NCBI RefSeq assembly: GCF_012910955.1
Contig: NZ_WTVQ01000003.1
Coordinates: 62,001-126,000 of the forward strand
From: Aromatoleum diolicum
GTDB lineage: Bacteria; Pseudomonadota; Gammaproteobacteria; Burkholderiales; Rhodocyclaceae
Length of the DNA stretch: 64,000 nt
Direction: 5' to 3'
The notes below the pieces were generated by a model. It had not been told where the DNA came from, did not search any database, and worked only from the letters and a program-made list of their open reading frames with translations. Made by a program: the position numbers and the translations under genes. Below are positions 5,440 to 29,878 of this stretch, piece by piece. Within the stretch, counting starts at the first letter, position 1. Each line of letters opens with the position of its first letter.

Positions 5440-5455
5440 CGATCAAGGAAAAACC

Positions 5456-6279: not shown

Positions 6280-6528
6280 AGCGCAGCACGATCAGCAGCG
6301 CCAGCGGCAGGACTGCGAGGGACGCGAGGTTGCCGGTGAACACGATCGACGCGCCCCCAGCGCGGGGATGAAGAGCTCCAGCGCAAGCTGGTTCGCGATC
6401 GCCATGTTCGGCTTGCGCAGGCGACCATAGAGGTAGCCGACCACGACGATCGACACCATCGGCGCGAGGATCGTCGCGATGCGCATCAGCATCGGCATTT
6501 CGGCCGACGCTGCCCCCGCCCCATTCAC
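6280..6528 (-). pseudogene. Frameshifted N-terminal remnant of an auxin-efflux-carrier (AEC) family transporter
   Basis: A GTG at 6528 overlaps the regulator stop as GTGA. It opens a frame with MRIATILAPMVSIVVVGYLYG and ANQLALELFIPAL, the first membrane segments of AEC-family permeases. Near 6350 the reading shifts frame: SIVFTGNLASLAVLPLALLIVLR, the next membrane segment, continues in another frame and the remaining roughly 200 residues are absent. The likely ancestor was a permease coupled to the GntR regulator. The TRAP system downstream may have replaced it. Family assignment is moderate. Confidence 0.55.
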
Positions 6529-7325: not shown

Positions 7326-7359
7326 GGTCTCGCTCCGGATGGTGTGGGGTGGTGCCCGA

Positions 7360-7373
7360 TATTGTCATCATAT
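7360..7373 (-). promoter_or_regulatory. FadR-type operator at the regulator's own promoter
   Basis: TATTGTCATCATAT; the minus strand reads ATATGATGACAATA, placing TATGAT as a candidate -10 box about 45 bp before the regulator ATG. It suggests autoregulation. The -35 region is weak. Confidence 0.55.
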
Positions 7374-7408
7374 TTTCTGATCGGGCCAAAAAAAGTTCTG
7401 AAGAAGTA

Positions 7409-7422
7409 TTGTCATCATACAA
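7409..7422. promoter_or_regulatory. FadR-type operator before denD, best palindrome
   Basis: TTGTCATCATACAA is a TTGT-N6-ACAA inverted repeat and the most symmetrical of the four copies. It lies about 36 bp from the copy at 7362-7373 and about 110 bp before denD. Confidence 0.6.
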
Positions 7423-7530
7423 CCATATGAGCTAGAGTTCAAACACGATACAGCGAAGAGGGGCCGGGAGGCCTCCGGTATCAGCTGGCAACCGGGCGAT
7501 CCGTCCGGACCCCACGAACAGGAGGAGATG

Positions 7531-8505: not shown

Positions 8506-8579
8506 GGGGGCGCCCATCCCCGACTCCAACGCAATACCGGTTTCATCGAGCGTGATTACTACATAACCAGGAGACAAAG

Positions 8580-9563
8580 ATGAAAATCTCGAAACTTGCG
8601 ACTACCGTGCTGACCGCCCTTGGCCTGAGCCTGAGCCTGAGCGCCGGCGTGCACGCCGAGACCGTGCTGAAGCTGGGCTATACGCCGACCAAGGACTCGC
8701 ACTACGCCGCCGGCGCCGATGCGTTCGCCGAGGAACTCGCCAAACGCACCAACGGGCGCTACAAGATCCAGCAGTTCCCCGCCAGTGCGCTCGGCGGCGA
8801 GCGCGAGATGATCGAAGCGGTGCAGCTCGGCACCCAGGACATCGTCCTGACCTCGACCGGTCCGGTCGGCAACTTCGTGCCGGAGGCGCGCATCGTCGAC
8901 ATCCCCTTCCTGTTCCGCGATTACGACCACGCCCACAAGGTGCTCGACGGCCAGATCGGCCAGGACCTGCTGAAGAAGTTTCCCGGCAAGGGCCTGATCG
9001 CGCTGGTGTGGATGGAAAACGGCTTCCGCCACATCACCAACAACAAGCGCCCGGTCAATACGCCGGACGACGTCAAGGGCCTGAAGCTGCGCACCATGGA
9101 GAACAAGGTGCACATGGAGGCCTTCAAGACCATGGGCGTACTGCCGACGCCGATGTCGATGGCCGAACTGTTCACCGCGTTGCAGCAGGGCACCGTCGAC
9201 GGGCAGGAAAACCCGATCCCGGTGATCCTTTCGAACAAGCTCTATCAGGTGCAGAAGAACGTCAGCCTCACCGGCCACGTCTATTCGCCCGCGCTGCTGA
9301 TCATCTCGCCGGGGGTCTGGAACAGCCTGAATGACGCCGACAAGAAGGCCTTCATGGAGGCCGCCAAGGTCGGGGTCGAAGCCAACCGCAAGCGCGTGAC
9401 CGCCGACGAGGCGAGCGGCATCGCGACGATCAAGGCCGCCGGCGTCCAGGTGGTCGAGAAGGTCGACCATGCCCAGTTCGCGAAAGCGGTCCAGCCGGCC
9501 TACACGGTGTTCGCCAAGGAGTTCGGCGCCGACCGCATCAAGCAGATCCAGGACGTCCGCTAA
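8580..9563 (+). CDS. dctP: TRAP transporter substrate-binding protein
   Basis: 327 residues with a signal peptide ending near VHA-ET (residue 26), then the DctP fold: LKLGYTPTKDSHYAAGADAF, GGEREMIEAVQLGTQDI, and LKLRTMENKVHMEAFKTMG with the arginine that usually binds the substrate carboxylate. It is periplasmic. The position after denD suggests it delivers erythronate/threonate. An ACCAGGAGAC site precedes the ATG. Confidence 0.9.
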   Translation: MKISKLATTVLTALGLSLSLSAGVHAETVLKLGYTPTKDSHYAAGADAFAEELAKRTNGRYKIQQFPASALGGEREMIEAVQLGTQDIVLTSTGPVGNFVPEARIVDIPFLFRDYDHAHKVLDGQIGQDLLKKFPGKGLIALVWMENGFRHITNNKRPVNTPDDVKGLKLRTMENKVHMEAFKTMGVLPTPMSMAELFTALQQGTVDGQENPIPVILSNKLYQVQKNVSLTGHVYSPALLIISPGVWNSLNDADKKAFMEAAKVGVEANRKRVTADEASGIATIKAAGVQVVEKVDHAQFAKAVQPAYTVFAKEFGADRIKQIQDVR

Positions 9564-9576
9564 CCTCACCGGAGGA

Positions 9577-9599
9577 GGGAGGGGCTCCGCGCTCCTCCC
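9577..9599 (+). promoter_or_regulatory. Intercistronic hairpin between dctP and dctQ
   Basis: GGGAGGGGC and GCTCCTCCC can pair (9 bp with one G-U pair) around a 5-nt loop. No T-tract follows. Such a stem could protect or attenuate the transcript so that the binding protein exceeds the permease; dctQ lacks a clear independent ribosome site. Confidence 0.45.
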
Positions 9600-9608
9600 G
9601 CAACGCTC

Positions 9609-10100
9609 ATGATCAAGCAGCTACTCAAGTTCGAGAGCCATGTGACCGACGTGATGCTGTGGCTCGCCTGCACGTTTCTCGTCCTCGCGGCGTCCTTCGG
9701 CATCTATCAGGTCATCACCCGTTTCGTCTTTTCCGAGCCCTCCACCTGGTCCGAGGTCGGCACCCGCATGGCGCTGATCTGGATGGTGTTCCTCGGCACC
9801 GTCGCCGCTTTCCGCCATGGCGCGCTGGTCTCGGTCGATCTCGCCTACCGGATCAGCAAGGGCGCGTGGCGCAAGGCCCTGCACCTGATCATCACCACCG
9901 TGACGCTGATCTTTCTCGCCGTCATCCTGTGGTTCGGCATCGATATCACGTGGAAGGTGCGTTTCCAGGAACTCGCCGGACTGGAGATCTCGATCTCGTG
10001 GGCCTATCTCGCCCTGCCGGTAGGCGCGCTGTTCAGCATGCTCGCCGTCATCGCGCACTACTTCGACCCCGTGCACGAGGAACTCGAAACGGCGCTGTGA
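9609..10100 (+). CDS. dctQ: TRAP transporter small permease subunit
   Basis: 163 residues with four predicted membrane segments (about residues 15-35, 50-70, 90-115, 130-150), the standard DctQ layout. It pairs with the large subunit to form the membrane complex. The ATG at 9609 lies just after the 9577-9599 stem and has no strong Shine-Dalgarno sequence. Confidence 0.85.
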   Translation: MIKQLLKFESHVTDVMLWLACTFLVLAASFGIYQVITRFVFSEPSTWSEVGTRMALIWMVFLGTVAAFRHGALVSVDLAYRISKGAWRKALHLIITTVTLIFLAVILWFGIDITWKVRFQELAGLEISISWAYLALPVGALFSMLAVIAHYFDPVHEELETAL

Positions 10101-10140
10101 CGCCGCCCGCGTCCCGCGTTGAGTTCCTCCGGAGGAAAAC

Positions 10141-11415
10141 ATGTCAGTAACGATGTTGTTCACGATGATTCTCGGCTTCGCGCTGAGCGTCTCGATCGCC
10201 GTGTCGATCGGTTTCGCGAGCGTCGCCGGCATCGCGCTGTTCTCCAGCGTGCCGATGCTCGTGATCCCGAAGGAAATCTTCGGTGCGATCGACAAGTACC
10301 CGCTCGCCGCGATTCCCTTCTTCATCCTCGCCGGCAACCTGATGGAAGTCGGCGGCATCTCGCGCCGGCTGGTCGAGTTCGCCAAGTCCATCGTCGGTGG
10401 CATGCAGGGCGGGCTCGCCTGCACCTGCGTGCTCACGTGCATGATCTTCGCGTCGGTGTCGGGCTCCAGCGTCGCGACCACCTTCGCGATCGGCGCGATC
10501 CTGATCCCGGCAATGATCAAGCACGGCTACCCGAAGCCCTTCGCGGCCTCGGTGCAGGCGACCGCCGCCGAGTTGGGCGTGATCATCCCGCCGTCGATCC
10601 CGATGATCCTGTACGGCGTGTCGGCGGAAGTCTCGATCGGCGAGCTGTTCATCGCCGGCATCGGTCCGGGCATTTTCATCGGCGTCGTGCTGATCATCTT
10701 CGTTGCCGTCTGGTCGCGCATCAAGGGCCACGGCAAGGACGACCACGTTGGTCGCAAGCCTTTCCGCGTCGCGCTGCGGGAAGCGGGACTCGCGCTGATG
10801 ATGCCGGTGATCATCCTCGGCGGCATCTACGGCGGCGTGTTCACGCCGACCGAAGCCTCGGTGGTGGCGGTGTTCTACGCGTTCCTGGTCGGTGCGCTGA
10901 TCTACCGCGAAATCACCGTCGATGACCTCGGCCGCATCCTGAAGAAATCGGTGATCTCGTCCGCGGTGATCATGTTCATCATCGCCAACGCGGGCCTCTT
11001 CAGCTTCCTGATCACCCGCGCCGGCGTGCCCGAGCAGATCGGCGAGTTCCTGCGCGAGATCCTGAAGAATCCGGCGATGTTCCTGCTCGGCGTCAACGTC
11101 GCGCTGTTCCTGATCGGCATGTTCATCGAGACCTCGGCCGCGATCATCGTGCTGGCCCCGATCCTCGCGCCAGTCGCGGCGAGTTTCGGCATCGACCCGG
11201 TGCATTTCGGCACGATCATGATCGTGAACCTCGCGCTCGGGATGATCACCCCGCCGTTCGGCGTCAATCTGTTCGCCGCCTGCACGGTCGCGAAGCTGTC
11301 GCTCGACAAGATGATCTCGTCGCTGCTGCCCTTCGTCGCGGTGATCCTCGCCTGCCTGATGGTGATCACCTACTTCCCGCCGCTGTCGCTGTTCCTGCGG
11401 GATCTGGCGTTCTGA
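10141..11415 (+). CDS. dctM: TRAP transporter large permease subunit
   Basis: 424 residues, highly hydrophobic, about 11-12 membrane segments. Typical DctM stretches include AIPFFILAGNLMEVGGISRRL, ELGVIIPPSIPMILYG and LGMITPPFGVNLF. It catalyses sodium-coupled uptake with DctQ and the binding protein. Its ribosome site GGAGGAA lies in a perfect 14-bp palindrome (10124-10137), which could fold and limit initiation. It is the last gene of the operon; a terminator follows. Confidence 0.9.
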   Translation: MSVTMLFTMILGFALSVSIAVSIGFASVAGIALFSSVPMLVIPKEIFGAIDKYPLAAIPFFILAGNLMEVGGISRRLVEFAKSIVGGMQGGLACTCVLTCMIFASVSGSSVATTFAIGAILIPAMIKHGYPKPFAASVQATAAELGVIIPPSIPMILYGVSAEVSIGELFIAGIGPGIFIGVVLIIFVAVWSRIKGHGKDDHVGRKPFRVALREAGLALMMPVIILGGIYGGVFTPTEASVVAVFYAFLVGALIYREITVDDLGRILKKSVISSAVIMFIIANAGLFSFLITRAGVPEQIGEFLREILKNPAMFLLGVNVALFLIGMFIETSAAIIVLAPILAPVAASFGIDPVHFGTIMIVNLALGMITPPFGVNLFAACTVAKLSLDKMISSLLPFVAVILACLMVITYFPPLSLFLRDLAF

Positions 11416-12836: not shown

Positions 12837-14084
12837 CTATTCGAGCAGATAGTAAGCTGCCGTCGCGCCGCGGTTGGCCCTGGCCTTGTCGAGTTCGCTG
12901 CGGGCCAGCACGCGCAGATGAACTTCGTCCGGACCGTCGAAGAAGCGCATCGCCCGGCCCCAGGTCCAGAACAGCGACAGGGGCGTGTCCGGCGTCAGCC
13001 CCATCGCGCCGAACACCTGCATGGCGCGGTCGAGGACGCGCGTTTGCAACTGGGCGGCGACGAGCTTGATGGCCGAGACATCGACGCGCGCGGCCTGATT
13101 GCCGCGCTGGTCCATCAGCCACGCGGCGCGCAGGACGAGCAGGCGCGCCTGGTCGATCTCGACGCGCGAGTGGGCGATCCACTCCTGGATGTTGGCGAAG
13201 TCGCTCAGATACTTGCCGAAGGTGCGGCGCTCCAGGGCGCGCTCGCACATCATTTCAAGCGCGAGTTCGCACTGGCCGATGGTGCGCATGCAGTGATGGA
13301 CGCGTCCCGGTCCGAGGCGCGCCTGGGCCAGCGCGAAGCCGTTGCCTTCCTCGCCGAGCAGGTTCTCCGCCGGGACGCGGACATCGCGGAAGACGATTTC
13401 GCAATGCCCCTCCGGCGCCAGGTGGTGCATCACCGGGATGTTGCGAACGATCTGCACGCCGGGCGTGCTCATCGGCACGATCACCATCGAATGGCGACAG
13501 TGCGCCTTCTCGTCCGCTGCGTCCTTCGTCAGGCCCATGACGATTGCAAACTCGCAGCGAGGATGGGCGGCGCCGGTGACGAACCACTTGCGGCCATTGA
13601 TGACGTAGTCGTCGCCGTCGCGCCGGATACTGGTGCGGATGTTGGTCGCGTCGGATGAGGCAACGTCGGGTTCCGTCATGGCGAAGCACGAGCGGATGCG
13701 GCCCTCGAGCAGGGGGCGCAGCCAGCGCTCGTACTGGATTTCCGTGGCGTGCAGGTGCAGCAGTTCCATGTTGCCGGTGTCGGGGGCGCTGCAGTTGAAC
13801 ACCTCCGATGACCACGGAATCCGGCCCATGGCTTCGGCCAGCGGGGCGTATTCCAGGTTGCCGAGCCGGGTGCCCGGTTCGTTCTCGCGCAGCCCGGGGA
13901 GGAACAGGTTCCACAGCCCTTCTTCGCGCGCGATGGCCTTGAGCGGCTCGATCACCGCCAGCGGATACTCGCCGCGTTCGACGCACTGGTGCCATTTTAG
14001 ATTGACCGGCAGTACGCGCCGGCTCATGAAGTGGCGCAACACTCCCAGGGCCGTTTCGGTTTTCTCTGAATAGTCGAAGTCCAT
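12837..14084 (-). CDS. Acyl-CoA dehydrogenase family protein (ACAD10/11-like), paralogue A
   Basis: 415 residues. The N-terminal helical domain is followed by the FAD/substrate motif CFAMTEPDVASSDATNIRTSI and [19 protein letters not shown]. The C-terminal helical domain ends with RFFDGPDEVHLRVLARSELDKAR. It uses FAD to desaturate an acyl-CoA at alpha-beta. The ATG at 14084 has GAGGAA 9 bp upstream. It is about as long as, and clearly paralogous to, the divergent gene at 14709-15968, so the two may form a heteromer as seen in some steroid side-chain dehydrogenases. A spacing-variant TetR site lies in its promoter. Confidence 0.82.
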   Translation of the reverse strand: MDFDYSEKTETALGVLRHFMSRRVLPVNLKWHQCVERGEYPLAVIEPLKAIAREEGLWNLFLPGLRENEPGTRLGNLEYAPLAEAMGRIPWSSEVFNCSAPDTGNMELLHLHATEIQYERWLRPLLEGRIRSCFAMTEPDVASSDATNIRTSIRRDGDDYVINGRKWFVTGAAHPRCEFAIVMGLTKDAADEKAHCRHSMVIVPMSTPGVQIVRNIPVMHHLAPEGHCEIVFRDVRVPAENLLGEEGNGFALAQARLGPGRVHHCMRTIGQCELALEMMCERALERRTFGKYLSDFANIQEWIAHSRVEIDQARLLVLRAAWLMDQRGNQAARVDVSAIKLVAAQLQTRVLDRAMQVFGAMGLTPDTPLSLFWTWGRAMRFFDGPDEVHLRVLARSELDKARANRGATAAYYLLE

Positions 14085-14157
14085 CGGGTTCGGTTCCTCG
14101 TGTCCGGCCTCGTCATCCATCGATCCGTGCCGATGGGGAAATGCGAGGTCTCGGGTG

Positions 14158-14708: not shown

Positions 14709-15968
14709 ATGGATTTTGAGCAATCGAAGAAGTCACTTGAGTGGATGGAGCGGGTCCGAGTTTTCATGGACGAGCATGTCTATCCGGCCATTCCGGTCTA
14801 TCACCAGCAGGCCGCCAGCATCGATCGCTGGACGGAGACACCGCCAGTGTTCGAGGAACTCAAGGCGAAGGCGCGTGCCGAAGGGCTGTGGAACATCTTC
14901 ATGCCGCCGTCGGATCATGACGACGACTTCTTCAGGAGCATCGGCCTGACCAACGTCGAGTACGCGCCGATCGCGGAGCTGATGGGGCGCGTGTCCTTCG
15001 CGTCCGAGGTGTTCAACTGCATGGCGCCGGACACCGGCAACTTCGAGGTGCTGCACCGCTACGGCACGGCCGACCAGAAGCGCCGCTTCATGGTGCCGCT
15101 GATGAACGGCGAGACGCGCTCGGCCTTCCTGATGACCGAGCCGAAGGTGGCGTCGTCCGATGCGCGGAATATCCGCACCGAGATCCGCCGCGACGGCGAC
15201 GACTACGTGATCAACGGCCACAAGTGGTGGTCGTCGGGCGCGGGCCATCCGCACTGCGCGTTCTTCATCGTGATGGGCAAGACCGATCCGGACGCGGAGA
15301 CCTATCGCCAGCAGTCGATGATCCTGGTGCCGCGCGACACGCCGGGGGTGACGGTGGTGCGCCACCTCAACGTGTTCGGCTTCGACCACGCGCCGCACGG
15401 GCACTTCGAGGTGATCCTCGACAACGTGCGCGTACCGGCGGAGAACCTGGTCCTCGGCGAGGGTCGCGGCTTCGAGATCGCGCAGGGCCGCCTCGGGCCG
15501 GGCCGCATCCATCACTGCATGCGCAACATCGCGTCGGCGGAGGTTGCGCTCGAGCGGATGTGCATCCGCCTGATGTCGCGTGAAGCGTTCGGCAAGAAGA
15601 TCAACGAGCACTCGGTGTGGGAGGAGCGCATCGCCAAAGCGCGCATCGACATCGAGATGGTGCGCCTGCTGTGCATGAAGGCGGCCTACATGATGGACAC
15701 GGTCGGCAACAAGGCCGCGCGCGGCGAAATCGCGATGATCAAGGTCGTCGCCCCGCAGGTGGCCCAGCGCATCATCGACATGGCCATTCAGGCACACGGC
15801 GGCGGCGGTGTTTCGCAGGATTTCGGGCTCGCCGAGATGTACGCGAATACCCGGATCGTGCGATTGACCGACGGCCCGGACGAGGTGCATTGTCGAACGG
15901 TGGCCAAGCTCGAGTGTCGCAAGTACGAAGGGCGCGACTACGCGAGCATCAAGGCGTATTCGAAGTGA
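14709..15968 (+). CDS. Acyl-CoA dehydrogenase family protein (ACAD10/11-like), paralogue B
   Basis: 419 residues. [20 protein letters not shown] and [19 protein letters not shown] are the FAD-binding core; [23 protein letters not shown] and [19 protein letters not shown] are C-terminal family stretches. FAD-dependent acyl-CoA desaturation is expected. The ATG at 14709 has AGAGAGG upstream; a longer open frame from 14589 only runs through the promoter. It is the first gene of the operon with the PadBCD-like complex, which links it to the oxidation of a CoA thioester. A 16-bp direct repeat (15962 and 15984) overlaps its stop. Confidence 0.83.
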
Positions 15969-16068: not shown

Positions 16069-18678
16069 GTGACAGCGTCGGTGAAAAGCGGTAAGTGGGA
16101 GGATGTCGAGCTCAAGACCACCTGCTACGGTTGCCCGGCAGGCACTTGCGGCATGCTCGCGCGTCGGGTCGATGGCGTGGTCGTATCCTTGCGCGGCGAC
16201 CCCGAGGATCCCTTCAGCCAGGGCAAGCTGTGCGCGAAGGGCCAGGCGCAGCTGATGATGGCCTACAGCAAGCGGCGCGTGACGAAGCCCCTCAAGCGCA
16301 CGAATCCCGAGAAGGGCATCGGCGTCGATCCGCGCTGGGTCGAGATCAGCTACGAGGAAGCGGTCGCGATCACGGCCGAGAAGGTCAAGCATTGCCGGGA
16401 TGTTGATCCGGGTGGTTTGGTCTTCGCGACTTCCGATTTCACGACCCTGCCGTGGTTCCTGCCTTCGCTGCTGATCTCGTTCGGCAGCTTCAACCACACT
16501 TCGGGCGGCCGCGCGTTCTGCGGCAACAACGTGCACCCGGTGCTGCAGCAGGTGCATGGCGGCTTCCACGTCGGCCCCGACTTCCACTTCTGCAATCACC
16601 TGATGTTGTTCGGCTCGAACAAGGGGGCGATGTCGAACTGGGCGGCGGTGACCGCGACCCTCGAGATGGCGCGCGCGCGCCGTCGCGGCATGAAGCTGGT
16701 GGTCATCGACCCGTGGTGCTCGAACGCGGCGTCCATCGCCGACGAGTGGGTGCCGATCCGCCCCGGCACCGACGGCGCGCTGGTCATGGCGATGATCAAC
16801 GTGATGGTCAATGAGCTCGGCATGTACGACGTCGAGTTCGTGCGCAAGCTGAGCAACGGCACCTACCTGATCCGCGACGCGGACGGGCACTACGCCCGCG
16901 ATCCGGTGACGGGCAAGCCGCAGCTGTGGGATACGAGCGATCAGAAGGCCAAGGTGTACGACGATCCGTCGCTCGCCGTGCCGGCGCTGGAGGGCAGCTT
17001 CGTGGTCGACGGCGAGCCTTGCACGCCCGCCTTCCAGCTCCTCAGGAAGCACCTGACCAAGTTCACGCCCGAGAGCGCCGCCGAGATCACGACCGTGCCG
17101 GCGCACACGATCCGGCGCCTCGCGCGCGAGTTCGCGACCGCGGCCTCGGTCGGATCGACGATCGAGATGGACGGCCACACGCTGCCGCTGCGTCCGGCGT
17201 GCGCGCACTGGTACAAGGGCATCAGCCAGCACTCGCAGGGTTTCGAGCAGGGTCTGGCGATCGCGATGCTGAACACCATCGTCGGCGCGGTGGACGTGCC
17301 CGGCGGGCTGCTCGCCGACACCGTCTTTGCGCATCACCCCGAGTTCTCCGAGAACAGCACCTGGATGGGCGCCGGTTCGGGCATGCGCGAGCGCGACGGC
17401 CTTGTCGCGGCGGGCAAGATCGCGACCTACGGCGACTCCTTCCCGGCGCCCTTCCCGATGAAGGACGTGCCCAAGCCGTACAACATGTCGGCGGACTCGC
17501 TGGCGGCGGTGGGTTCGTACAACAGCGGCCTGGTGAGCAAGGTCAGCGTGCTGGAGCCGAAGACGTTCAACGACAAGGTGCCGCACAACCCGATGGTGTA
17601 TGTGCAGGTGGTGTCGAACGACATCCTCAACGAGGGCAACCCCAAGCAGCAGGCGGACTTCCACCGGAAATTCGGCTTCCAGCTGTCGATCGTGCCGAAC
17701 ATCGATGAGACGGCCGAGTTCGCCGACATCATCTTCCCGACGCAGACGCAGCTCGAACGACTCGACATGGGGGCGAACAACATCCCCGACACGATGGGCT
17801 CGACGGCGACCAACGAGTACTGCATCAACCTGCGCCAGCCGGTCGTGCCGACCGACTACAAGCACAACGTCGACATCTGGATCGACATCGCGGAGAAGGC
17901 GGGCTTCCTGCCGGCCTTCAACCAGACGGTCAACCAGTTCCTCGAACTGAAGGGCGAATGGGCGCTGGAAGCCGGCAAGAAGTACGACAACAAGAATCTC
18001 ATGGAGCGCTGGATCCGGTCGATGACCGCCGGCAAGCTCTCGCTCGAGGACGTCGCCAAGGAAGGGCGCATCCGCTGGGCGAAAACCGTGCAGGAAAAGT
18101 ATCCGCGTCCGTTCTACAAGAGCCGCATCCCGGTGTATTACGAGTACTTCCTCGAAGCCGGCGCGCGCGTCAAGGCAACGACCGACTCGATCGGCATGGA
18201 CTGGGACGTGTCGCGCTACAAGCCGCTGGTCGACTGGTACCCGGCGCCGGGACACGGGCGCGGCCAGAACGGCTACGAGCTGTTCGCGGTGAGCTTCAAG
18301 TGGCCCTTCCTGACCAGCACCTTCTCGAACTTCAACCCGTGGCTCGCGGAGCTGGCGCAGTACCACCCCTACGTTGGCAAGATCATCCTCAACCGCAGTT
18401 ACGCCGAGTCGCAGGGCCTGCGCGACGGCGACCGCGTGGTGGCGGAGAACCTGCGCGGGCGCCGGGTGGAGGGCGTCCTGCTGCTTAGCGAGTGCATCCA
18501 TCCGGAATGCGTCGGGATGGACCACCACGGCGGGAGCTGGGCAAAGGCCCTGCCGCCGCGGCGCAAGAACACCGGGCCGCACTTCGGCGAGCTGCTCGAT
18601 TACGACATGAAGAATCTCGACATCATGGACGGCGCGTTCGAGGCCAGTCCGAAACTGCGGGTCACGCGCGTGGGCTGA
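16069..18678 (+). CDS. Molybdopterin oxidoreductase catalytic subunit, DMSO reductase family, PadB-like
   Basis: 869 residues. Cys19, Cys22, Cys27 and Cys55 (CYGCPAGTC ... GKLCAKG) bind the N-terminal [4Fe-4S] cluster. Cys151 in GGRAFCGNNVHPV aligns with the Cys/Sec molybdenum ligand of NapA/FdhF. There is no obvious Tat signal. Size and the two following genes match phenylacetyl-CoA:acceptor oxidoreductase (PadBCD) of denitrifying betaproteobacteria, which oxidises the alpha carbon of a CoA ester; polysulfide/thiosulfate reductase-like enzymes are the main alternative. GTG at 16069 was chosen because GGAGG lies at 16056-16060. The operon also has an acyl-CoA dehydrogenase and a flavoprotein, so an acyl-CoA substrate other than phenylacetyl-CoA is likely. 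Confidence 0.78.
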   Translation: MTASVKSGKWEDVELKTTCYGCPAGTCGMLARRVDGVVVSLRGDPEDPFSQGKLCAKGQAQLMMAYSKRRVTKPLKRTNPEKGIGVDPRWVEISYEEAVAITAEKVKHCRDVDPGGLVFATSDFTTLPWFLPSLLISFGSFNHTSGGRAFCGNNVHPVLQQVHGGFHVGPDFHFCNHLMLFGSNKGAMSNWAAVTATLEMARARRRGMKLVVIDPWCSNAASIADEWVPIRPGTDGALVMAMINVMVNELGMYDVEFVRKLSNGTYLIRDADGHYARDPVTGKPQLWDTSDQKAKVYDDPSLAVPALEGSFVVDGEPCTPAFQLLRKHLTKFTPESAAEITTVPAHTIRRLAREFATAASVGSTIEMDGHTLPLRPACAHWYKGISQHSQGFEQGLAIAMLNTIVGAVDVPGGLLADTVFAHHPEFSENSTWMGAGSGMRERDGLVAAGKIATYGDSFPAPFPMKDVPKPYNMSADSLAAVGSYNSGLVSKVSVLEPKTFNDKVPHNPMVYVQVVSNDILNEGNPKQQADFHRKFGFQLSIVPNIDETAEFADIIFPTQTQLERLDMGANNIPDTMGSTATNEYCINLRQPVVPTDYKHNVDIWIDIAEKAGFLPAFNQTVNQFLELKGEWALEAGKKYDNKNLMERWIRSMTAGKLSLEDVAKEGRIRWAKTVQEKYPRPFYKSRIPVYYEYFLEAGARVKATTDSIGMDWDVSRYKPLVDWYPAPGHGRGQNGYELFAVSFKWPFLTSTFSNFNPWLAELAQYHPYVGKIILNRSYAESQGLRDGDRVVAENLRGRRVEGVLLLSECIHPECVGMDHHGGSWAKALPPRRKNTGPHFGELLDYDMKNLDIMDGAFEASPKLRVTRVG

Positions 18679-18752
18679 CGCCCGCCGCGTGGCGACGACG
18701 ACAAACGAGATCGAAAAATTATTTCCCCACGGATTGCAGGAGGTTGGTACTG

Positions 18753-19367
18753 ATGGCTCGACTGGGAATGGTCATTGACTTGAAGGTGTGTGTGGGTTGC
18801 CATGCGTGCACGGCTGCCTGCAAAGCCACCAACGGCACGCCGCCGGACATCTACTTCGCGCGCGTGCATGAACGGGAGGTCGGCGTGTATCCGAATGCGC
18901 GCCGTGAGTTCCTGCCGGTACTGTGCAACCACTGCGAGGATCCGCCGTGTGTGCCGGTGTGCCCGACCGGGGCGAGCTACAAGCGCGAGGACGGCATCGT
19001 CGCCGTCAAGAGCGACCTGTGCATCGGCTGCCGCAGCTGCGCGACCTCGTGTCCGTACGAGCATCGCCACTACGTCAAGCCGGGCATCCTGGAAACCGGG
19101 TACTTCAACGGCGAACTGTCGATCTACGAGAAGGCGAAGTACAGCCGCTGGGACTCAGGCACGGTGATCAAGTGCGACTTCTGCATGGATCGCGTGGATC
19201 AGGGGCTGCAGCCGGCCTGCGTCGAGACCTGTCCGGCGGAGGCGCGAATATTCGGCGATCTCGCGGACCCGGAAAGCGCCCCGAGCAAGCTGCTGAGCGA
19301 ACGCGAGTCGTTCACGCTGCTGCCCGATGCCGGCACCAAGCCGAGCGTGCATTACCTCAAGGCCTGA
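18753..19367 (+). CDS. Iron-sulfur electron-transfer subunit (DmsB/PadC-like)
   Basis: 204 residues with sixteen clustered cysteines for four [4Fe-4S] centres: CVGCHACTAAC (Cys13, 16, 19, 23), CNHCEDPPCVPVCP, CIGCRSCATSCP and CDFCMDRVDQGLQPACVETCP. It carries electrons from the molybdenum subunit to the membrane anchor. The ATG at 18753 follows CAGGAGG. No signal peptide was seen, so the complex probably faces the cytoplasm. Confidence 0.88.
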   Translation: MARLGMVIDLKVCVGCHACTAACKATNGTPPDIYFARVHEREVGVYPNARREFLPVLCNHCEDPPCVPVCPTGASYKREDGIVAVKSDLCIGCRSCATSCPYEHRHYVKPGILETGYFNGELSIYEKAKYSRWDSGTVIKCDFCMDRVDQGLQPACVETCPAEARIFGDLADPESAPSKLLSERESFTLLPDAGTKPSVHYLKA

Positions 19368-19408
19368 TGCGGCCCGCGCCCATCACCTGATCCAAAGGAA
19401 TCGATGTC

Positions 19409-20323
19409 ATGAGCCTTAAGTACCAGACCGGCGTTCGCTTCAATCATCACCTGGGCCCCCAGGAAACTCTGAGCTTCATGGGGGAGGGGGTGGGCGCGGC
19501 GTTGTTCGCGATCGCTTTCTTCACCGGGCAGTGGCTGTTCGCGGTGCCCGGCATCCTGTTCGTGGTCGGCGCCGTCGTCGCGCTGCTCGGACACCTCGGC
19601 AACCCGCAGCGCGCCTGGCGCGCCGTGACGCGGGTGGGCACGTCGTGGGTAAGCCGCGGGACGCTCTTCATCGGCGTCTTCGTGGGCATCGCGACGCTTG
19701 CGGTGGCGGCGGGCTATCTGGGTATGACTGCGCTGCAGGGACCGCTGGCCTTCGCGGCGCTGGTGGTGGCGGTGCCCGTGATGGCCTACGCGGGAATGTT
19801 GCTGCGTTCGATACGCGCGATCCGCCTGTGGCGCGGCCCTTTCGTTCCGCTGGCCTTCGTCGCGCACTCGCTGGCGTCGGCATTGACCCTCGCTTGGGCG
19901 CTGATGCCCGTGCTGGCGGGATCGGACGCCGCACCGTGGCTGCAGCCGGCGGCGATGGTGAGCCTCGTTGCCAGCGCACTGGTGTCGCTGCTGCATCTGT
20001 TGCGCGCAGAGCGCAGCGCCGGGGTGCAGGCGTCCTTCGAGCGGCTGTTCCGCGGCGACCTCCGGTCGAGCTTCATTGTCGGCGGGGTTGTTTGCGGCAT
20101 CGTCATTCCGCTGGTGGCGATGGCCGTGCTGGCGGCACTTGCCGGCGGCGGTGCGGTGACGGCGCTGATGCTTGCGGTTGCACTGTGCCGGCTGTACGGC
20201 GACTTTGCCTACCGCAACGGCGTGGTGCTGGCGGGTGCCTATGAGCCGGTGATGCCCGACTGGCCCATGCGTTCTTTCACGCCGCCAGGGGCCGCACCGG
20301 CCTGCGGCACGGCGGGGCATTGA
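19409..20323 (+). CDS. Membrane anchor subunit (DmsC/PadD-like)
   Basis: 304 residues with about eight membrane segments, starting near FMGEGVGAALFAIAFFTGQW. It matches the DmsC/NrfD-type anchor that passes electrons to the quinone pool. It completes the catalytic-FeS-anchor trio with the two preceding genes; spacing is 41 bp with an AAAGGAA ribosome site. Confidence 0.8.
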   Translation: MSLKYQTGVRFNHHLGPQETLSFMGEGVGAALFAIAFFTGQWLFAVPGILFVVGAVVALLGHLGNPQRAWRAVTRVGTSWVSRGTLFIGVFVGIATLAVAAGYLGMTALQGPLAFAALVVAVPVMAYAGMLLRSIRAIRLWRGPFVPLAFVAHSLASALTLAWALMPVLAGSDAAPWLQPAAMVSLVASALVSLLHLLRAERSAGVQASFERLFRGDLRSSFIVGGVVCGIVIPLVAMAVLAALAGGGAVTALMLAVALCRLYGDFAYRNGVVLAGAYEPVMPDWPMRSFTPPGAAPACGTAGH

Positions 20324-20481: not shown

Positions 20482-21948
20482 ATGAAAGCAATCCCCGAGG
20501 TGATCGAGGCTGCCCGCGTGGCGCACTGGGACGACCAGGCTGGCGTGATCGTGGTCGGCTATGGCATCGCCGGCGCGTGTGCTGCGCTGGAGGCGCGCCG
20601 CGCCGGTGCGGACGTGCTGGTGGTGGAGCGTGCGAGCGGCGGCGGCGGCGCCAGCGCGATGTCGTCGGGCATCTTCTATCTCGGCGGCGGAACGCCGGTG
20701 CAGAAGGCGGCCGGCTACGACGACACGCCCGACGAGATGTACAAGTTTCTCATGGCGAGCACCAATGCGCCGGACGCCGCGCTGGTACGGCGCTTCTGCG
20801 ACGACTGCGTGGAGCACTTCGACTGGCTGGAAGCGCAGGGTGTTCAGTTCGAGCGCAGCTACTATCCGGGCAAGTCGGTGTTCCTGAACACCACGGAATG
20901 CCTGATGAGCACGGGCAGCGAGAAGGTGTGGCCGTTCCGCGACGTCGCGCGGCCGGCGCCGCGCGGCCACAAGGTCGCGCGCGCAGGCGACGATGCCGGC
21001 TCGCAGGCGATGGAGGCGCTGCTCGCGCGCTGCGCCGCAGAGGGCATCCGCGCGGCCTACGACTGCCAGGTGACGGGGCTGGTGATGGATGCGGACGGGC
21101 GCGTGGTCGGGGTGCGCGTGAAGCGGTCGGGCGAGGAGATCCACCTGCGCGCGCGGCGCGGCGTGATCCTTTCGACCGGCGGTTTCAACCTCAACCGCGA
21201 GATGCTGGAAGAGCACGTGCCGCAGATGACCGGAAACTCCGAACCGCTGGGTATCCCGTACAACGACGGGGCGGGGATCAAGCTCGGCGTGTCGGCGGGC
21301 GGGGCGACGCAGGCGATGGACGGCGTGATCGCGACCGCCTCGTTCTATCCGCCGGCGCAGCTGATCAAGGGCATCCTCGTGAACGCGCGCGGTGAGCGCT
21401 TCGTGGCCGAGGATTCGTATCACGGCCGCACCGCCGCGCACATCATCGAGCAGCCCGAGTACAAGGCCTACCTGATCCTCGATGCGGAGATTTTTGCCTA
21501 TCCGGAGTTGACCGACTATTCGCACCACACGCTGGTGGATGGCTGGGAAACCGTGGAGGAAATGGAGGCGGGACTGAAGTTGCCGGAGGGATCGCTGCAG
21601 CGCACGCTCGCGGAGTACAACCGCCATGCGGAGAACGGCGTGGATCCGTTGTTCTACAAGCATCCCGAATGGGTCAAGCCGCTGAACGTCGGCCCGTATG
21701 CGGCGTTCGATGTGTCGTTCAACAAATCGACCTACCTGTTCATCACGCTCGGCGGCCTCAAGACAAACGTCGACGGCGAGGTGCTGACGCCGCTGGGCCG
21801 CACCGTAGCAGGCCTGTACGCGGCGGGCGCGTGCGTGTCGAGCATTCCGCAGAACGGCGAGGGCTACGCGAGCGGGCTGAGCCTCGGGCCGGGGTCGTTC
21901 TTCGGCCGTTGCGCCGGACGTCGCGCGGCGGTTGCGCCGCTCGCCTGA
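20482..21948 (+). CDS. FAD-binding oxidoreductase of the fumarate reductase/3-ketosteroid dehydrogenase family (cytoplasmic)
   Basis: 488 residues. VIVVGYGIAGACAALEARRAGADVLVVER is the dinucleotide-binding fold, GGGGASAMSSGIFYLGGGT is the family FAD loop, RGVILSTGGFNLNREML is the second FAD stretch, and GLYAAGACVSSIPQNGEGYASGLSLGPGSFFGR is the C-terminal FAD contact. No signal peptide. Members remove or add hydrogens at C-C bonds next to a carbonyl (ketosteroid delta-1 dehydrogenase, enoate reductases). It is last in the PadBCD-like operon. The substrate is unknown. Confidence 0.75.
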   Translation: MKAIPEVIEAARVAHWDDQAGVIVVGYGIAGACAALEARRAGADVLVVERASGGGGASAMSSGIFYLGGGTPVQKAAGYDDTPDEMYKFLMASTNAPDAALVRRFCDDCVEHFDWLEAQGVQFERSYYPGKSVFLNTTECLMSTGSEKVWPFRDVARPAPRGHKVARAGDDAGSQAMEALLARCAAEGIRAAYDCQVTGLVMDADGRVVGVRVKRSGEEIHLRARRGVILSTGGFNLNREMLEEHVPQMTGNSEPLGIPYNDGAGIKLGVSAGGATQAMDGVIATASFYPPAQLIKGILVNARGERFVAEDSYHGRTAAHIIEQPEYKAYLILDAEIFAYPELTDYSHHTLVDGWETVEEMEAGLKLPEGSLQRTLAEYNRHAENGVDPLFYKHPEWVKPLNVGPYAAFDVSFNKSTYLFITLGGLKTNVDGEVLTPLGRTVAGLYAAGACVSSIPQNGEGYASGLSLGPGSFFGRCAGRRAAVAPLA

Positions 21949-22005: not shown

Positions 22006-22896
22006 TCAGTCGATGATGCGTTGCGGATGCGCGTAGACCATCGCGCGGTCGTCGCGGACGAAACCGCACAGCGTGAGGCCGTGGCGCTGCGCCAGTTCGA
22101 TCGCCAGGGATGACGGCGCGGAGATCGCGGCCAGCACCTCGAGTCCCGCGCGCACGGCCTTGGCTGCCATTTCGTAGCTCACGCGGCTCGAGATGAAGGC
22201 CCCGCAGCCGGCGAAACTCTGCCCGCTGAGGAAGTGGCGGCCGATCACCTTGTCGAGGGCGTTGTGCCGGCCCAGATCCTCGGCGACCGCGAGCAGCTGC
22301 AGGTCCGGCCCGAAGAGCGTTGCGCCGTGTGTCCCTCCCGTCGCGCCGAAGACGCGCTGGCGGTCCTGCATTCCTGTGCGGATGGTCGCGAGATCGGCGA
22401 TGCGCAAGCGCAGGTTGCCGGTGGGCGGCGCCGTGCAGGTGACGCCATCGAAGAGTTGTTCGCGCCCGCCGCACACCCCGCAAGAACTATTCACGACGAC
22501 GTTGCGGCGGCGCACGTTGGCCTCGTCGGGATGCGCCAGCCGCAGGTTCACGACGTCCGGGCGCTCGTGACAGATCCACATCGCCGCGATGTCGGACAGG
22601 GTGTCGATGATCCCCTCGGTGAAGGCGAAGCCCGTGGCCAATGCCAGCGCCTCGGGGATGTCGCCGTCCGCGAGAACGCCGTCCTGGGCCGTGTAACCGA
22701 CATCGCCCGGAGGCTCGTCGGTCGGCGTCCACATCAGGGAATAGGCGCCGATGCCCTCGACCTCGATGGTCAGCACATCCTCGCGCACGACCTGGCATTC
22801 CGGAATCGTGCGTCGCCCGCCTGCCGCCGAATGGTGCTCGGCAGTCGCCGGCGTGACGCCGAACAGGCGCGGAAGGTGATCTCGCGGGACGTTCAT
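22006..22896 (-). CDS. fdhD: FdhD-type sulfurtransferase for molybdenum cofactor maturation
   Basis: 296 residues. NSSCGVCGG (Cys139, Cys142) is the essential CxxC of FdhD, which passes sulfur from a cysteine desulfurase to the Mo-bis-MGD cofactor of formate-dehydrogenase-like enzymes. The ATG at 22896 was preferred to one 36 bp upstream. The gene stands between two flavoprotein genes and has a TetR-like operator in its leader, which ties cofactor sulfuration to the island's molybdoenzymes rather than to a formate dehydrogenase, none of which is nearby. Confidence 0.88.
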   Translation of the reverse strand: MNVPRDHLPRLFGVTPATAEHHSAAGGRRTIPECQVVREDVLTIEVEGIGAYSLMWTPTDEPPGDVGYTAQDGVLADGDIPEALALATGFAFTEGIIDTLSDIAAMWICHERPDVVNLRLAHPDEANVRRRNVVVNSSCGVCGGREQLFDGVTCTAPPTGNLRLRIADLATIRTGMQDRQRVFGATGGTHGATLFGPDLQLLAVAEDLGRHNALDKVIGRHFLSGQSFAGCGAFISSRVSYEMAAKAVRAGLEVLAAISAPSSLAIELAQRHGLTLCGFVRDDRAMVYAHPQRIID

Positions 22897-22981
22897 GGGC
22901 TCGACTCCAGCGCAATGTGTTTGGTGTGTCAATCGCAGCCGGCATGAGGGTGGCTGGTGCGATTGATCTTATCACCAAAAG

Positions 22982-23089: not shown

Positions 23090-23203
23090 TGTCCCCACTC
23101 TGCGCGGTCCCATGATCGCGCAGTTTCGCACCGGTAAAGCTGGAAGTCCCGCAGGCCGCGCAGGGCTCGTCAATGTCGGGACTCTACAAGAACAGGAGGA
23201 GTG

Positions 23204-24970
23204 ATGACAATGAAAGGGATGGGCCACGATCCGTCGCGGCGGCGCCTGCTGGCCAATGCCGGACGTAGCGTCGGCGCTGCGGCCATGCTCGGTCTGGGCG
23301 TCGGCCAGGCATCCGCGGCGTCGGGCGTGAAATGGGCGCGCGAGGTCGACGTGGTATGCGTGGGTAGCGGCGCCGCGGCGCTCACCGCAGCCGTGACCGC
23401 CGCGAACGCGGGCAGCCAGGTGCTGGTGCTGGAGAAGGGGCCCATCACTGGCGGGACGACGCGCAAGTCCGGCGGGGTGTTCTGGATTCCGAACCACTAC
23501 GCCTTGCGCGAGCGCGGCATCGACGACCGCAAGGAGGACTGCCTCCGCCATCTGTGCCGGGTCTCGTATCCGGAGCGTTACCGGCCGGACAGCCCCACGT
23601 TCGGCCTCGATCAGGACGCCTTCGCGCTGTTGGAAGCGTTCTACGACAACGGCTACAAGGCGGTCGACCTGATGCGCAGCCGCGGTGCGTTGCGCATCGC
23701 GCAGTTCAACATGTGGCAGCTCAATCGCCCGGCACCGGACTACCAGGATCATCTCCCCGAGGACAAGACCTCGCAGGGGCGTTCGCTGGGCGTGCTCAAG
23801 GCCGACGGCAGCAACGGCGGCGGCACCGACTACATCGACCAGCTCGAAGGCTACCTGAAGAAGCAGGGCGTCGAGATCCTGACCGACCACCGCGTGCAGA
23901 AACTGATCCTGAACGCCCGCCAGGAAGTGGTCGGCGTCGAAGTCGAGACCGAAGATGGCGTGGTGCAGATCCGCGCCCGCAAGGGCGTCGTCTTCGGCAC
24001 CGGCGGCTATGCGCACAACCTGGATTACGTGCGCCTCTACCAGCGCACCTTCCTGTACGGCTCCTGCGCGACGCCCTACGCGACCGGCGACTTCATCACG
24101 ATCGCGGGCACGGCGGGGGCGCGGCTGGGCAACCTCGGCTCGGCGTGGCGCAGCCAGGCGCTCATCGAGGAGTGCATCGAGAATCGCTCTCTTGCGCGCT
24201 GCGTCGACATGCCGCCGGGGGACTCGATGTTCATGGTCAACAAGTACGGCGTGCGGGTCGTCAACGAGAAGCGCAACTACAACGACCGCACCGAAGCGCA
24301 CCTGACCTTCGACCCGAACAACGGCGAGTTCCCGAACCAGCTGCAGTTCATCATCTACGACCAGCGCACGGCCGAGCTCTTCGCCGGCGCCCATCCGCTG
24401 CCGGCGACCCCGACCGGGGCGGGCTATGTGATCCAGGGCGGCACGCTCGACGAACTCGCGACGAACATCGCGGCACGGCTCGAGCGCATCCGCGCGCATA
24501 TCGGCACCGTGAAGCTGGCACCGGAATTCTCGCGCAACCTCAAGCAGACTTTCGAGCGCTTCAACGGTTACGCCAAGCGCGGTGTCGATCCCGATTTCCA
24601 CCGGGGAGAGGCCGAATACGATCGAGCGTGGGCGCTGTTCTTCCAGCCGGCGCGCGAGAACACGCGCTGGTCGGTGAAAACGGGCCTGCCCAATCCCGCC
24701 ATGCATCCGCTCCAGGCAAAAGGTCCGTATTACGCGCTGATCGTCGGTGCCGGGGCGCTGGATACCAACGGTGGTCCTGTCGTCGACGCGCAGGCGCGCG
24801 TGATCCACGCCAGCGGCAAGCCGATCCCGGGGCTCTACGGGGCGGGCAACTGCATCGCGAGCCCTTCGCGGGAAGCCTATTTCGGCGCCGGCGGCACGAT
24901 CGGGCCGGCGATGGCCTTCGGTTACATCGCCGGCATGAATGCGGCGGCGGCACCGGTCAAGGAGCTGTAG
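23204..24970 (+). CDS. Tat-exported FAD-binding dehydrogenase (fumarate reductase/KstD family)
   Basis: 588 residues. A twin-arginine signal, SRRRLLANAG followed by a hydrophobic stretch, ends near ASA-ASG, so the folded flavoprotein is sent to the periplasm. VVCVGSGAAALTAAVTAANAG and GGTTRKSGGVFW bind FAD, RKGVVFGTGGYAHNLDYV is the second FAD stretch, and GLYGAGNCIASPSREAYFGAGGTIGPAM closes the site. AGGAGGA at 23194-23200 fits ATG 23204 or 23210. The next gene encodes a small cytochrome c, a likely electron acceptor, so this looks like a two-subunit flavocytochrome dehydrogenase. It is the first gene of a five-gene operon under TetR control. Confidence 0.8.
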   Translation: MTMKGMGHDPSRRRLLANAGRSVGAAAMLGLGVGQASAASGVKWAREVDVVCVGSGAAALTAAVTAANAGSQVLVLEKGPITGGTTRKSGGVFWIPNHYALRERGIDDRKEDCLRHLCRVSYPERYRPDSPTFGLDQDAFALLEAFYDNGYKAVDLMRSRGALRIAQFNMWQLNRPAPDYQDHLPEDKTSQGRSLGVLKADGSNGGGTDYIDQLEGYLKKQGVEILTDHRVQKLILNARQEVVGVEVETEDGVVQIRARKGVVFGTGGYAHNLDYVRLYQRTFLYGSCATPYATGDFITIAGTAGARLGNLGSAWRSQALIEECIENRSLARCVDMPPGDSMFMVNKYGVRVVNEKRNYNDRTEAHLTFDPNNGEFPNQLQFIIYDQRTAELFAGAHPLPATPTGAGYVIQGGTLDELATNIAARLERIRAHIGTVKLAPEFSRNLKQTFERFNGYAKRGVDPDFHRGEAEYDRAWALFFQPARENTRWSVKTGLPNPAMHPLQAKGPYYALIVGAGALDTNGGPVVDAQARVIHASGKPIPGLYGAGNCIASPSREAYFGAGGTIGPAMAFGYIAGMNAAAAPVKEL

Positions 24971-24973: not shown

Positions 24974-25360
24974 ATGCGTCGGCAAGTGCTGGTCGGCGTG
25001 CTGTGCGGCGCGCTCACGGGGATGGCGCAGGCGGGTGACGTCCAGTTCGCGCGCGACGTGGTGCCGATCTTCAAGACGAGCTGCGTGATGTGCCACCTGC
25101 CCGGCAACGGGCCGGCGGGACTCGCGCTGCATCCGAAGGGCGGGTACGCGAACCTGGTGGGGATTGCCTCCACGCAGAGTCCGCTGCTGCGCGTTGCTCC
25201 CGGTAATCCGGAAGAAAGTTACCTGTATCGCAAGCTCGTCGGCACGCATGCCGGGGCGGGCGGCAGCGGGGAACGGATGCCCTTCGGCGACATGCAGTTG
25301 GGCGAGGAACAGATCGACGTGATCCGTCGCTGGATCGCGGACGGCGCGAAGGCTGAATGA
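24974..25360 (+). CDS. Small periplasmic cytochrome c
   Basis: 128 residues. A signal peptide covers residues 1-20 (cleavage near AQA-GD). CVMCH (Cys37, Cys40, His41) binds one heme c, and a methionine in ERMPFGDMQL may be the sixth ligand. The stretch DVVPIFKTSCVMCH and the ending EEQIDVIRRWIADGAK are typical of single-heme domains found beside dehydrogenases. It starts 4 bp after the Tat flavoprotein and is its probable electron partner. Confidence 0.82.
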   Translation: MRRQVLVGVLCGALTGMAQAGDVQFARDVVPIFKTSCVMCHLPGNGPAGLALHPKGGYANLVGIASTQSPLLRVAPGNPEESYLYRKLVGTHAGAGGSGERMPFGDMQLGEEQIDVIRRWIADGAKAE

Positions 25361-25370: not shown

Positions 25371-26102
25371 ATGCAATTGGATGATCTGAAGGACAAGGTG
25401 GTCGTGGTCACCGGAGGCAACTCCGGCATGGGACGCGCGATGGCGATCGGATTCGCCGCGCACGGCGCCCGGGTCGTGGTCGGAGATCGCGCCACGGAGC
25501 CGGAGCCGTTCGACGACGCGGCTATCGTGTATCACCAGTGCGACGTGTCGAAGGCACAGGACGTCAAGGAGCTCGTAGGGGTCGCGACTTCGCGTTTCGA
25601 CCGGCTGGATGTCCTGGTCAATAACGCCGGCATCAACGGCCCGCTGATGCCGCTCGCGGAGCTGCAGGACGAGGCCATCGACGCGGTCCTCGGCGTGAAT
25701 CTGAAGGGCACGCTGTACGGCCTGAAGTACGGCCTGCAGGCGATGGTCGGACAGGGCGCGGGGGTGATCATCAACATCGCCTCGGTGCAGGGCCTGCGGC
25801 CGATCTACGCCGGCGGGTCGATCTACGCCGCGAGCAAGGCGGCGGTGGTATCGCTGACCCGTTCGGCCGCGCATGAATACGGGCAGTACGGCATCCGCGT
25901 GATCGGGGTCGCGCCCGGCCCGATCGACACGCCGATGCTGCGCGCGGCGGACGCCACGATGAGCATCGTCAATTCCGTGCCCTTGCACCGCATCGGCACG
26001 CCGCAGGAGTTGGCGAACGCCGTGCTGTGGCTCGCGAGCGATGCGGCCTCCTACGTGTCGGGCTGCGTGCTGACGGTCGACGGCGCCTTCCTGGCGGCAT
26101 AA
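25371..26102 (+). CDS. Short-chain dehydrogenase/reductase
   Basis: 243 residues. TGGNSGMGRAMAIG binds the cofactor, NNAG is present, and Ser in NIASVQG with Tyr-AASK is the catalytic set. A classical SDR that interconverts an alcohol and a ketone on NAD(P). It is third in the operon with the Tat flavoprotein and cytochrome. The substrate is unknown. Confidence 0.85.
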   Translation: MQLDDLKDKVVVVTGGNSGMGRAMAIGFAAHGARVVVGDRATEPEPFDDAAIVYHQCDVSKAQDVKELVGVATSRFDRLDVLVNNAGINGPLMPLAELQDEAIDAVLGVNLKGTLYGLKYGLQAMVGQGAGVIINIASVQGLRPIYAGGSIYAASKAAVVSLTRSAAHEYGQYGIRVIGVAPGPIDTPMLRAADATMSIVNSVPLHRIGTPQELANAVLWLASDAASYVSGCVLTVDGAFLAA

Positions 26103-28071: not shown

Positions 28072-28182
28072 ACCGGTCCTCGCGACAGGCGCATTTTCGT
28101 GTCGCGACGAAAAAGCCGGCAAGAGACTTCAAGAGTTGTTGGATGAAGACAAATGAAGCGCAGCTCAAAGGAGGAGTTTGAC

Positions 28183-29856: not shown

Positions 29857-29878
29857 GAATCGACAGGAGATATTGGAA

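Follow-up and report, generated by a model that had tools for sequence, protein, structure and literature searches.

Two described systems frame the locus considered here, a three-subunit molybdenum complex encoded at 16069–20323 of a 64,000-nucleotide stretch of the Aromatoleum diolicum genome (hereafter, the window). The first is the monoterpene island of Castellaniella defragrans (PMC4109377, PMC6394551), with which the window shares MrcA-, MrcB- and AmeABCD-type genes. Table 1 of PMC4109377 lists peptides of the acyl-CoA dehydrogenase (ACAD) MrcB and the flavin adenine dinucleotide (FAD) oxidoreductase MrcA only for C. defragrans grown on alpha-phellandrene, and PMC6394551 describes the AmeABCD operon of the island. 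As these sources describe it, CtmAB is the activating enzyme there and mrcB and mrcA are adjacent, whereas in the window a molybdenum enzyme lies between the mrcB- and mrcA-like genes. The second system is the phenylacetyl-CoA:acceptor oxidoreductase PadBCD. The original prediction for this locus described a PadBCD-like enzyme in a non-phenylacetate context, which might alpha-oxidise or hydroxylate a different acyl-CoA. Judged by its sequence, the window enzyme is only a distant cousin of canonical PadBCD and forms, on a long stem, one of several separate PadB-like lineages. The surrounding cluster, moreover, seems to point to alicyclic or terpenoid ring degradation, which adds to the original prediction. 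Our overall reading, for and against which we see the case as evenly balanced, is that the complex would be a cytoplasmic, quinone-linked molybdenum hydroxylase/dehydrogenase whose substrate is a CoA thioester formed while alicyclic/terpenoid rings are broken down without oxygen.

The complex consists of a molybdenum bis(molybdopterin guanine dinucleotide) (Mo-bisMGD) catalytic subunit, an iron-sulfur (FeS) subunit and a membrane anchor:

16069–18678, forward strand: catalytic Mo-bisMGD subunit, 869 amino acids, with Cys151 and with FS0 starting at Cys19 (Pfam, alignments)
18753–19367, forward strand: FeS subunit, 204 amino acids, with 16 Cys in four 4Fe-4S patterns (Pfam, Cys count; start codon picked by eye)
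19409–20323, forward strand: NrfD/DmsC-type membrane anchor, 304 amino acids (Pfam)

We found that the molybdopterin oxidoreductase domains, the partner with four 4Fe-4S clusters and the NrfD/DmsC anchor of the dimethyl sulfoxide (DMSO) reductase (Mo-bisMGD) superfamily are all present. The catalytic subunit matches the Pfam domains Molybdopterin and Molybdop_Fe4S4, with a Molydop_binding match below cut-off. Its Cys151 aligns with Cys residues of PsrA/thiosulfate reductase (2vpw), acetylene hydratase (2e7z) and ArrA (6cz7) that we take to be metal ligands, and the position is Cys in all 72 alignment rows counted, window included (72 of 73 rows were counted, a duplicate of the window's own catalytic gene being left out). 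The FeS subunit has exactly 16 Cys, arranged as four groups. Pfam, alignments and Cys count thus bear out the three subunits of the original prediction, with their 869 residues, Cys151, 16-Cys FeS protein and membrane anchor. The ratio of nonsynonymous to synonymous substitution rates (dN/dS) for padB, padC and padD against A. toluclasticum and A. tolulyticum is 0.04–0.19, and all three subunits are under purifying selection. The padB-padC-padD-like order recurs in A. tolulyticum (L050) and A. toluclasticum (L051); in Azoarcus sp. Aa7 (L048), padC was missed by the gene caller. Given the low dN/dS and the recurring gene order in other species, the three-gene set is not a product of chance. No sequence for an export signal is present: FS0 begins at Cys19, which leaves no room for a twin-arginine translocation (Tat) signal, and a cytoplasm-facing active site is therefore expected.

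Among solved structures, the second-best match of the catalytic subunit is acetylene hydratase, and the two share the metal-ligand Cys. These similarities could be taken to favor a reductive or hydratase mode, in which the complex would either remove hydroxyl groups at the expense of quinol or add water as acetylene hydratase does. However, a hydratase does not need an FeS wire and a quinone anchor, and the related organisms denitrify, which would favor oxidation over reduction. We therefore regard a reductive or hydratase mode as quite unlikely, and hydroxylation or oxidation as a reasonably probable direction for the reaction.

The following genes near the complex include those that suggest a link to Castellaniella:

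12837–14129, reverse strand: acyl-CoA dehydrogenase, a divergent partner 48% identical to the ACAD at 14709 (Pfam ACAD domains; kept in Azoarcus sp. Aa7, A. tolulyticum and A. toluclasticum)
14709–15968, forward strand: ACAD11-type acyl-CoA dehydrogenase, MrcB-like (Pfam; best solved relative ACAD11, 8v3u, E 2.3e-138; published table)
20482–21948, forward strand: MrcA-like flavoprotein (closest solved relative, by far, 3-ketosteroid-delta4-(5alpha)-dehydrogenase, 4at0, E 3.1e-111)
28153–35047, forward strand: AmeABCD-type operon of DUF1302, DUF1329, YCF48-like and RND/MMPL genes (domain make-up compared with PMC6394551)

Domain and solved-structure matches confirm what the original prediction had said of the two adjoining genes, namely that they encode an acyl-CoA dehydrogenase and a KstD-type flavoprotein. 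What we take to be the catalytic residues of 4at0 (Tyr319, Tyr466 and Ser468, with a chain offset of 20) are all kept in the flavoprotein, as Tyr313, Tyr462 and Ser464. In Table 1 of PMC4109377, the best matches are from Azoarcus toluclasticus: WP_018990727 for C. defragrans MrcB, at 90% identity, and WP_018990723 for MrcA, at 73%. These accession numbers leave exactly three proteins between them, and in A. toluclasticum L051 exactly three genes, all of them padBCD-like, stand between the ACAD and the flavoprotein (ACAD-B-C-D-FAD). The published identities and the match of numbering to gene order suggest, strongly but indirectly, that the window ACAD and flavoprotein are orthologs of MrcB and MrcA. 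The window operon at 28153–35047, likewise, matches the make-up of AmeABCD as given in PMC6394551.

Related genes also occur without the complex. In genome G552, a 75% identical relative of the flavoprotein adjoins a cyclohexanone-dehydrogenase-like gene and a cytochrome gene, with AmeA/B-type genes within about 20 kb; no padBCD was found within the 40 kb read around this relative. Among 399 genomes we found no 90% ortholog of the ACAD. Thirteen match at E ≤1e-165, namely G000 itself and 12 others, and none of these 12 is such an ortholog because all are at 63–65% identity.

Does the C. defragrans pathway depend on molybdenum? Table 2 of PMC4109377 reports that an insertion mutant in molybdenum transport grew on acetate with denitrification but failed to grow when given limonene, beta-myrcene or perillyl aldehyde. 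This phenotype is a hint, from one mutant, which suggests a molybdenum-dependent step beyond denitrification, at or after the aldehyde. PMC4109377 also found ctmAB in C. defragrans only among the strains compared, although T. terpenica too mineralises cyclic monoterpenes, and therefore other activating enzymes must exist. One of these could be the window complex, if a free terpene or cyclic ketone were hydroxylated at an allylic or alpha-keto position before CoA activation, in a CtmAB-like role; the Ame-type operon and the ring-ketone flavoproteins of the cluster would fit such a substrate. However, the complex lies directly between an ACAD and the MrcA-like gene, and some related lineages adjoin CoA-ester genes. 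We consider this alternative unlikely. Azoarcus strains, according to PMC4109377, had not been tested for monoterpene growth as of 2014.

We next consider how the complex relates to canonical PadBCD. When the A. diolicum genome was searched, contig C102 proved to encode another enzyme of this kind, 33% identical to the window enzyme (28% by blastp). The PadI model scores above its curated cut-off on this contig only (847.7 bits), near the second enzyme, and contig C102 holds the genome's phenylacetate cluster, with canonical padBCD beside padEFGHI. The same arrangement is found in G490, G526 and others. No padEFGHI was detected beside the window complex. Within the window, the PadI model matches the complex's own FeS subunit alone, with a score of 47 bits where the cut-off is 700.

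To place the catalytic subunit, 90 open reading frames spanning more than 700 query residues were reduced to 64 by duplicate removal, and 8 SoeA-like sequences were added. The first tree had 75 rows, including two very long paralogues (L011 and L013); the second, without these, used 43 of 73 rows, and it is the source of the support values given here. We denote the window lineage as A and the other PadB-like groups as B, B2, T, C, D and E, with the canonical PadB proteins in D; groups F and S are presumably PhsA-like and SoeA-like, respectively. Lineage A groups with B, B2, T and C (Shimodaira–Hasegawa-like approximate likelihood ratio test [SH-aLRT] 91), apart from D and E. In the approximately unbiased (AU) test, forcing A together with D and E, the canonical-PadB clade and its relatives, was rejected (p 0.0207), while forcing it together with lineage B was not (p 0.301). 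An FS0 ligand also separates groups. Position 27 is Cys in all counted rows of A, B, B2, T, C, F and S but Asp in 13 of 13 D rows, where it takes the place of the third FS0 Cys (for example, at L092 8532–11354), and in 8 of 8 E rows. His163 is common to A, B, T, C, D and E, with Gly in B2, Trp in F and Tyr in S. Most of the clade D loci fetched have PadEFGHI-like genes; L068, L119 and L120 lack them in the stretch read.

The window enzyme therefore shares with canonical PadBCD (of this genome and of G490) its subunit plan and order, an FS0 at the very start, the Cys ligand, His163 and a CoA-type setting, but differs in its 28–33% identity, its separate clade, its Cys in place of the PadB Asp at FS0 position 27, and its lack of an adjoining padEFGHI. 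That it is a PadBCD isoenzyme, i.e. a second phenylacetyl-CoA:acceptor oxidoreductase, is suggested by the common three-subunit plan and Cys ligand. Against this stand the canonical pad cluster elsewhere in the genome, with PadI above cut-off on C102 only, and the rejected grouping with the canonical-PadB clade, and we judge it highly improbable. The PadBCD likeness of the original prediction thus holds for the kind and order of the subunits, but close kinship fails. The non-phenylacetate context is confirmed by the phenylacetate cluster on C102, and a CoA ester is a plausible substrate.

Could the complex instead act on a sulfur compound, as an oxidoreductase of the PhsA, PsrA or SoeA type, or on another inorganic substrate? 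PsrA/PhsA, SoeA and acetylene hydratase belong to the same superfamily, and the metal-ligand Cys is common to PsrA and acetylene hydratase. The window enzyme differs in its low family scores, its gene setting and its lack of a Tat signal, which PsrA and PhsA carry. Its top NCBIfam model is PhsA, but at 178.9 bits against a cut-off of 694, and this model does not discriminate, because it is also the top model for all ten relatives scanned, canonical PadB included. Forcing A together with the PhsA-like set was rejected (AU p 0.0066), whereas forcing it together with the SoeA-like set was not rejected at 5% (p 0.0698). The outcome that would have refuted the original prediction, a place among sulfur-compound reductases, was thus not seen for the PhsA-like set, although at 5% the test does not separate the enzyme from the SoeA-like set. 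No neighbor identified in the window scans points to sulfur metabolism. Altogether, a sulfur or other inorganic substrate seems very improbable.

Lineages B and C, from Rhodocyclaceae and other Burkholderiales, have the same FS0 Cys set as the window enzyme. Their best identities to it are 33–38%, and their FeS subunits are 50–56% identical where the window FeS subunit gave the best match. Their neighbors differ from those in the window (UbiD, CoA-transferase III, a thiamine pyrophosphate (TPP) enzyme and PadEFGHI-like genes). Lineage C lies beside PadEFGHI-like genes in 5 of 11 loci (L056, L093, L113, L115 and L117), and these form a second pad-like cluster, in some cases in genomes that also have a canonical pad cluster. 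Lineage B in L091, the sole lineage-B locus whose flanks were scanned this deeply, lies beside genes for CoA-transferase III, an ACAD and 3-hydroxyacyl-CoA dehydrogenase. Several genomes have two or three copies of lineage B (L091, L104, L108, L110, L185 and L186, of which L185 and L186 were assigned by 35% identity only and were not placed on the tree), near genes for UbiD, CoA-transferase III, enolase-superfamily, TPP-enzyme or FAA-hydrolase proteins.

We also asked how widely lineage A is distributed. A scan by six exact peptide patterns, which could miss more distant orthologs, gave orthologs at 93–98% identity from Azoarcus sp. Aa7, A. toluolicum, A. tolulyticum and A. toluclasticum. The catalytic gene (at least 93% identity) is present in 5 of the 17 genomes of the genus, and the MrcA-like flavoprotein (at least 94%) is found in exactly those five. 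Lineage A was found in none of 31 genomes of a neighboring genus, which we take to be Thauera. At the thresholds used, sampling 199 genomes of the family, 399 of the order and 398 of the phylum gave no instance outside the genus. Fourteen plasmid records matched the catalytic subunit, none reaching 60% identity, and in just one case (27.5%) did the match cover most of its length. Novosphingobium pNL2 and Cupriavidus pBB1 carry relatives of the flavoprotein at 61–62%, and the 31 kb read around each holds no padBCD. Literature searches on monoterpene degradation, Aromatoleum, mrcA and molybdopterin gave no paper on the gene set among the matches listed.

One of the carriers, Azoarcus sp. Aa7, is described as a bile-acid degrader (PMC8399759), and the flavoprotein is closest to a ketosteroid dehydrogenase. 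The complex might then be a steroid enzyme, for example for an unassigned step of the 2,3-seco pathway. We scanned 12 genomes for the steroid marker KshA (KshA_C) and found it in 4 of 5 lineage A carriers and 1 of 7 non-carriers. However, marker and cluster do not coincide: A. tolulyticum has the cluster without KshA, and strain CIB has KshA without the cluster. In both Aa7 and CIB, KshA has a 45% identical paralogue of the flavoprotein about 18 kb away, outside any window-type cluster; in A. diolicum, KshA is on contig 92 and the paralogue on contig 81. Because of this mismatch and the separate paralogue near KshA, we consider a terpenoid or simple alicyclic role more likely than a steroid role, which we did not adopt and regard as improbable.

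The following genes were also identified in the window:

22006–22932, reverse strand: FdhD (profile matches), presumably the sulfurtransferase for Mo-bisMGD enzymes
23201–24970, forward strand: cyclohexanone-dehydrogenase-like flavoprotein with, by eye, a Tat-like start (8am8, E 3.1e-115)
24974–25360, forward strand: small exported c-type cytochrome with one CxxCH by eye, adjoining the preceding gene
25371–26102, forward strand: short-chain dehydrogenase/reductase (SDR) (Pfam; kept in the Aromatoleum clusters read)
35790–36548, forward strand: SDR dehydrogenase (domain match)
46272–48491, reverse strand: second molybdenum enzyme, single subunit (best solved match acetylene hydratase, 2e7z, E 3.7e-41)
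49295–55751, no single strand assigned: zinc alcohol dehydrogenase, SDRs, SnoaL-like protein, CurA-like ene-reductase and aldehyde dehydrogenase (domain matches)
57238–63971, reverse strand: AMP-dependent CoA ligase, SDR, EthD, enoyl-CoA hydratase, thiolase and an enoyl-CoA hydratase/3-hydroxyacyl-CoA dehydrogenase fusion (domain matches)

SnoaL-like and SDR genes also occur between FdhD and the AmeABCD-type operon region. A. tolulyticum and Aa7 preserve the gene order of the cluster, and A. toluclasticum does so for the most part; conserved across all three are the ACADs, the padBCD-like genes, the MrcA-like gene, FdhD, SDR and AmeABCD-type genes, and the block from CoA ligase to the hydratase/dehydrogenase fusion (57238–63971). 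The second molybdenum enzyme is 82% identical in A. tolulyticum and Aa7 and was not seen in the A. toluclasticum stretch L182–L184. L048, L050 and L051 lack both the cyclohexanone-dehydrogenase-like gene and its cytochrome at the equivalent position, the only part of those genomes checked for them; the G552 pair is 50% identical to that of the window. Tyr181 of the flavoprotein at 23201–24970 aligns with the catalytic Tyr195 of cyclohexanone dehydrogenase, the residue mutated in PMC10966990. That source gives 8am3, 8am6 and 8am8 as cyclohexanone dehydrogenase, with 8am8 from Alicycliphilus denitrificans, and we rejected AcmB as their identity. The catabolic region goes on downstream of the window (L179 14739–16329, reverse strand) with thiolase-like and ChsH2-like OB-fold/zinc-ribbon genes. 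Such a pairing is known from steroid side-chain cleavage. At the other end, genes at 2402–11415 for kinase/aldolase-like proteins, an NAD-epimerase and a TRAP transporter resemble, by eye, an erythronate/threonate-type sugar-acid cluster and are apparently unrelated.

How might such a complex work? We propose a cytoplasm-facing, quinone-linked Mo-bisMGD complex of catalytic subunit, FeS wire and NrfD anchor, set in an oxygen-independent pathway for an alicyclic or terpenoid compound. It would insert water-derived oxygen at an activated C-H of a CoA-thioester intermediate, either alpha to the thioester or vinylogous to it after the flanking MrcB-like ACAD has acted. Electrons would pass to the quinone pool and thence to denitrification, and the alcohol or ketone so formed would pass to the SDRs of the cluster and to the MrcA-like flavoprotein, as an enone-forming or enone-reducing enzyme. 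The substrate is probably of the terpenoid/alicyclic class. That it is a CoA thioester we favor slightly, because of the cytoplasmic appearance of the complex, the flanking ACADs and the CoA-ester genes beside some related lineages.

Several points weigh against the reading of the complex as a hydroxylase/dehydrogenase of this kind. Its reaction and substrate are predictions from sequence and gene context, and the putative link to MrcA and MrcB comes from a published table and accession numbering. In C. defragrans, mrcB and mrcA are adjacent with no padBCD between them (PMC4109377), and therefore at least one mrc pathway manages without the complex. Table 1 of that paper lists no PadBCD for the island, and one "Molybdopterin-binding OR" elsewhere, unchanged in amount; the molybdenum dependence there must thus come from another molybdenum enzyme. 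Branch support is moderate (SH-aLRT 91 for A with B, B2, T and C, and 79 with D and E added), and the AU p-values are somewhat favorable because the groups were named after the first tree had been seen. No clear PadEFGHI set was found in 6 of the 11 lineage C loci, in the stretch read, and KshA in 4 of 5 carriers leaves some room for a steroid-related role. Finally, an AlphaFold model from five near-identical orthologs had a mean predicted local distance difference test (pLDDT) score of 29.4, and nothing was drawn from it.

The oxygen-free oxidation of cyclic terpenoids and ring ketones by denitrifiers is only partly understood, and related degraders have no counterpart of CtmAB, an activating enzyme described from C. 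defragrans. A molybdenum enzyme between two terpenoid-type ring genes offers a specific target gene in cultured, named Aromatoleum strains. We suggest tentatively, and with somewhat less than even confidence, that in some Aromatoleum species an undescribed Mo-bisMGD hydroxylase lineage, whose genes lie between mrcB and mrcA, performs a central C-H oxidation without oxygen during the anaerobic breakdown of terpenoid/alicyclic rings, possibly a reaction for which C. defragrans relies on other enzymes. If this is true, the "PadB-like" group would comprise a broader range of oxygen-independent oxidases, with phenylacetyl-CoA oxidation as a single example.

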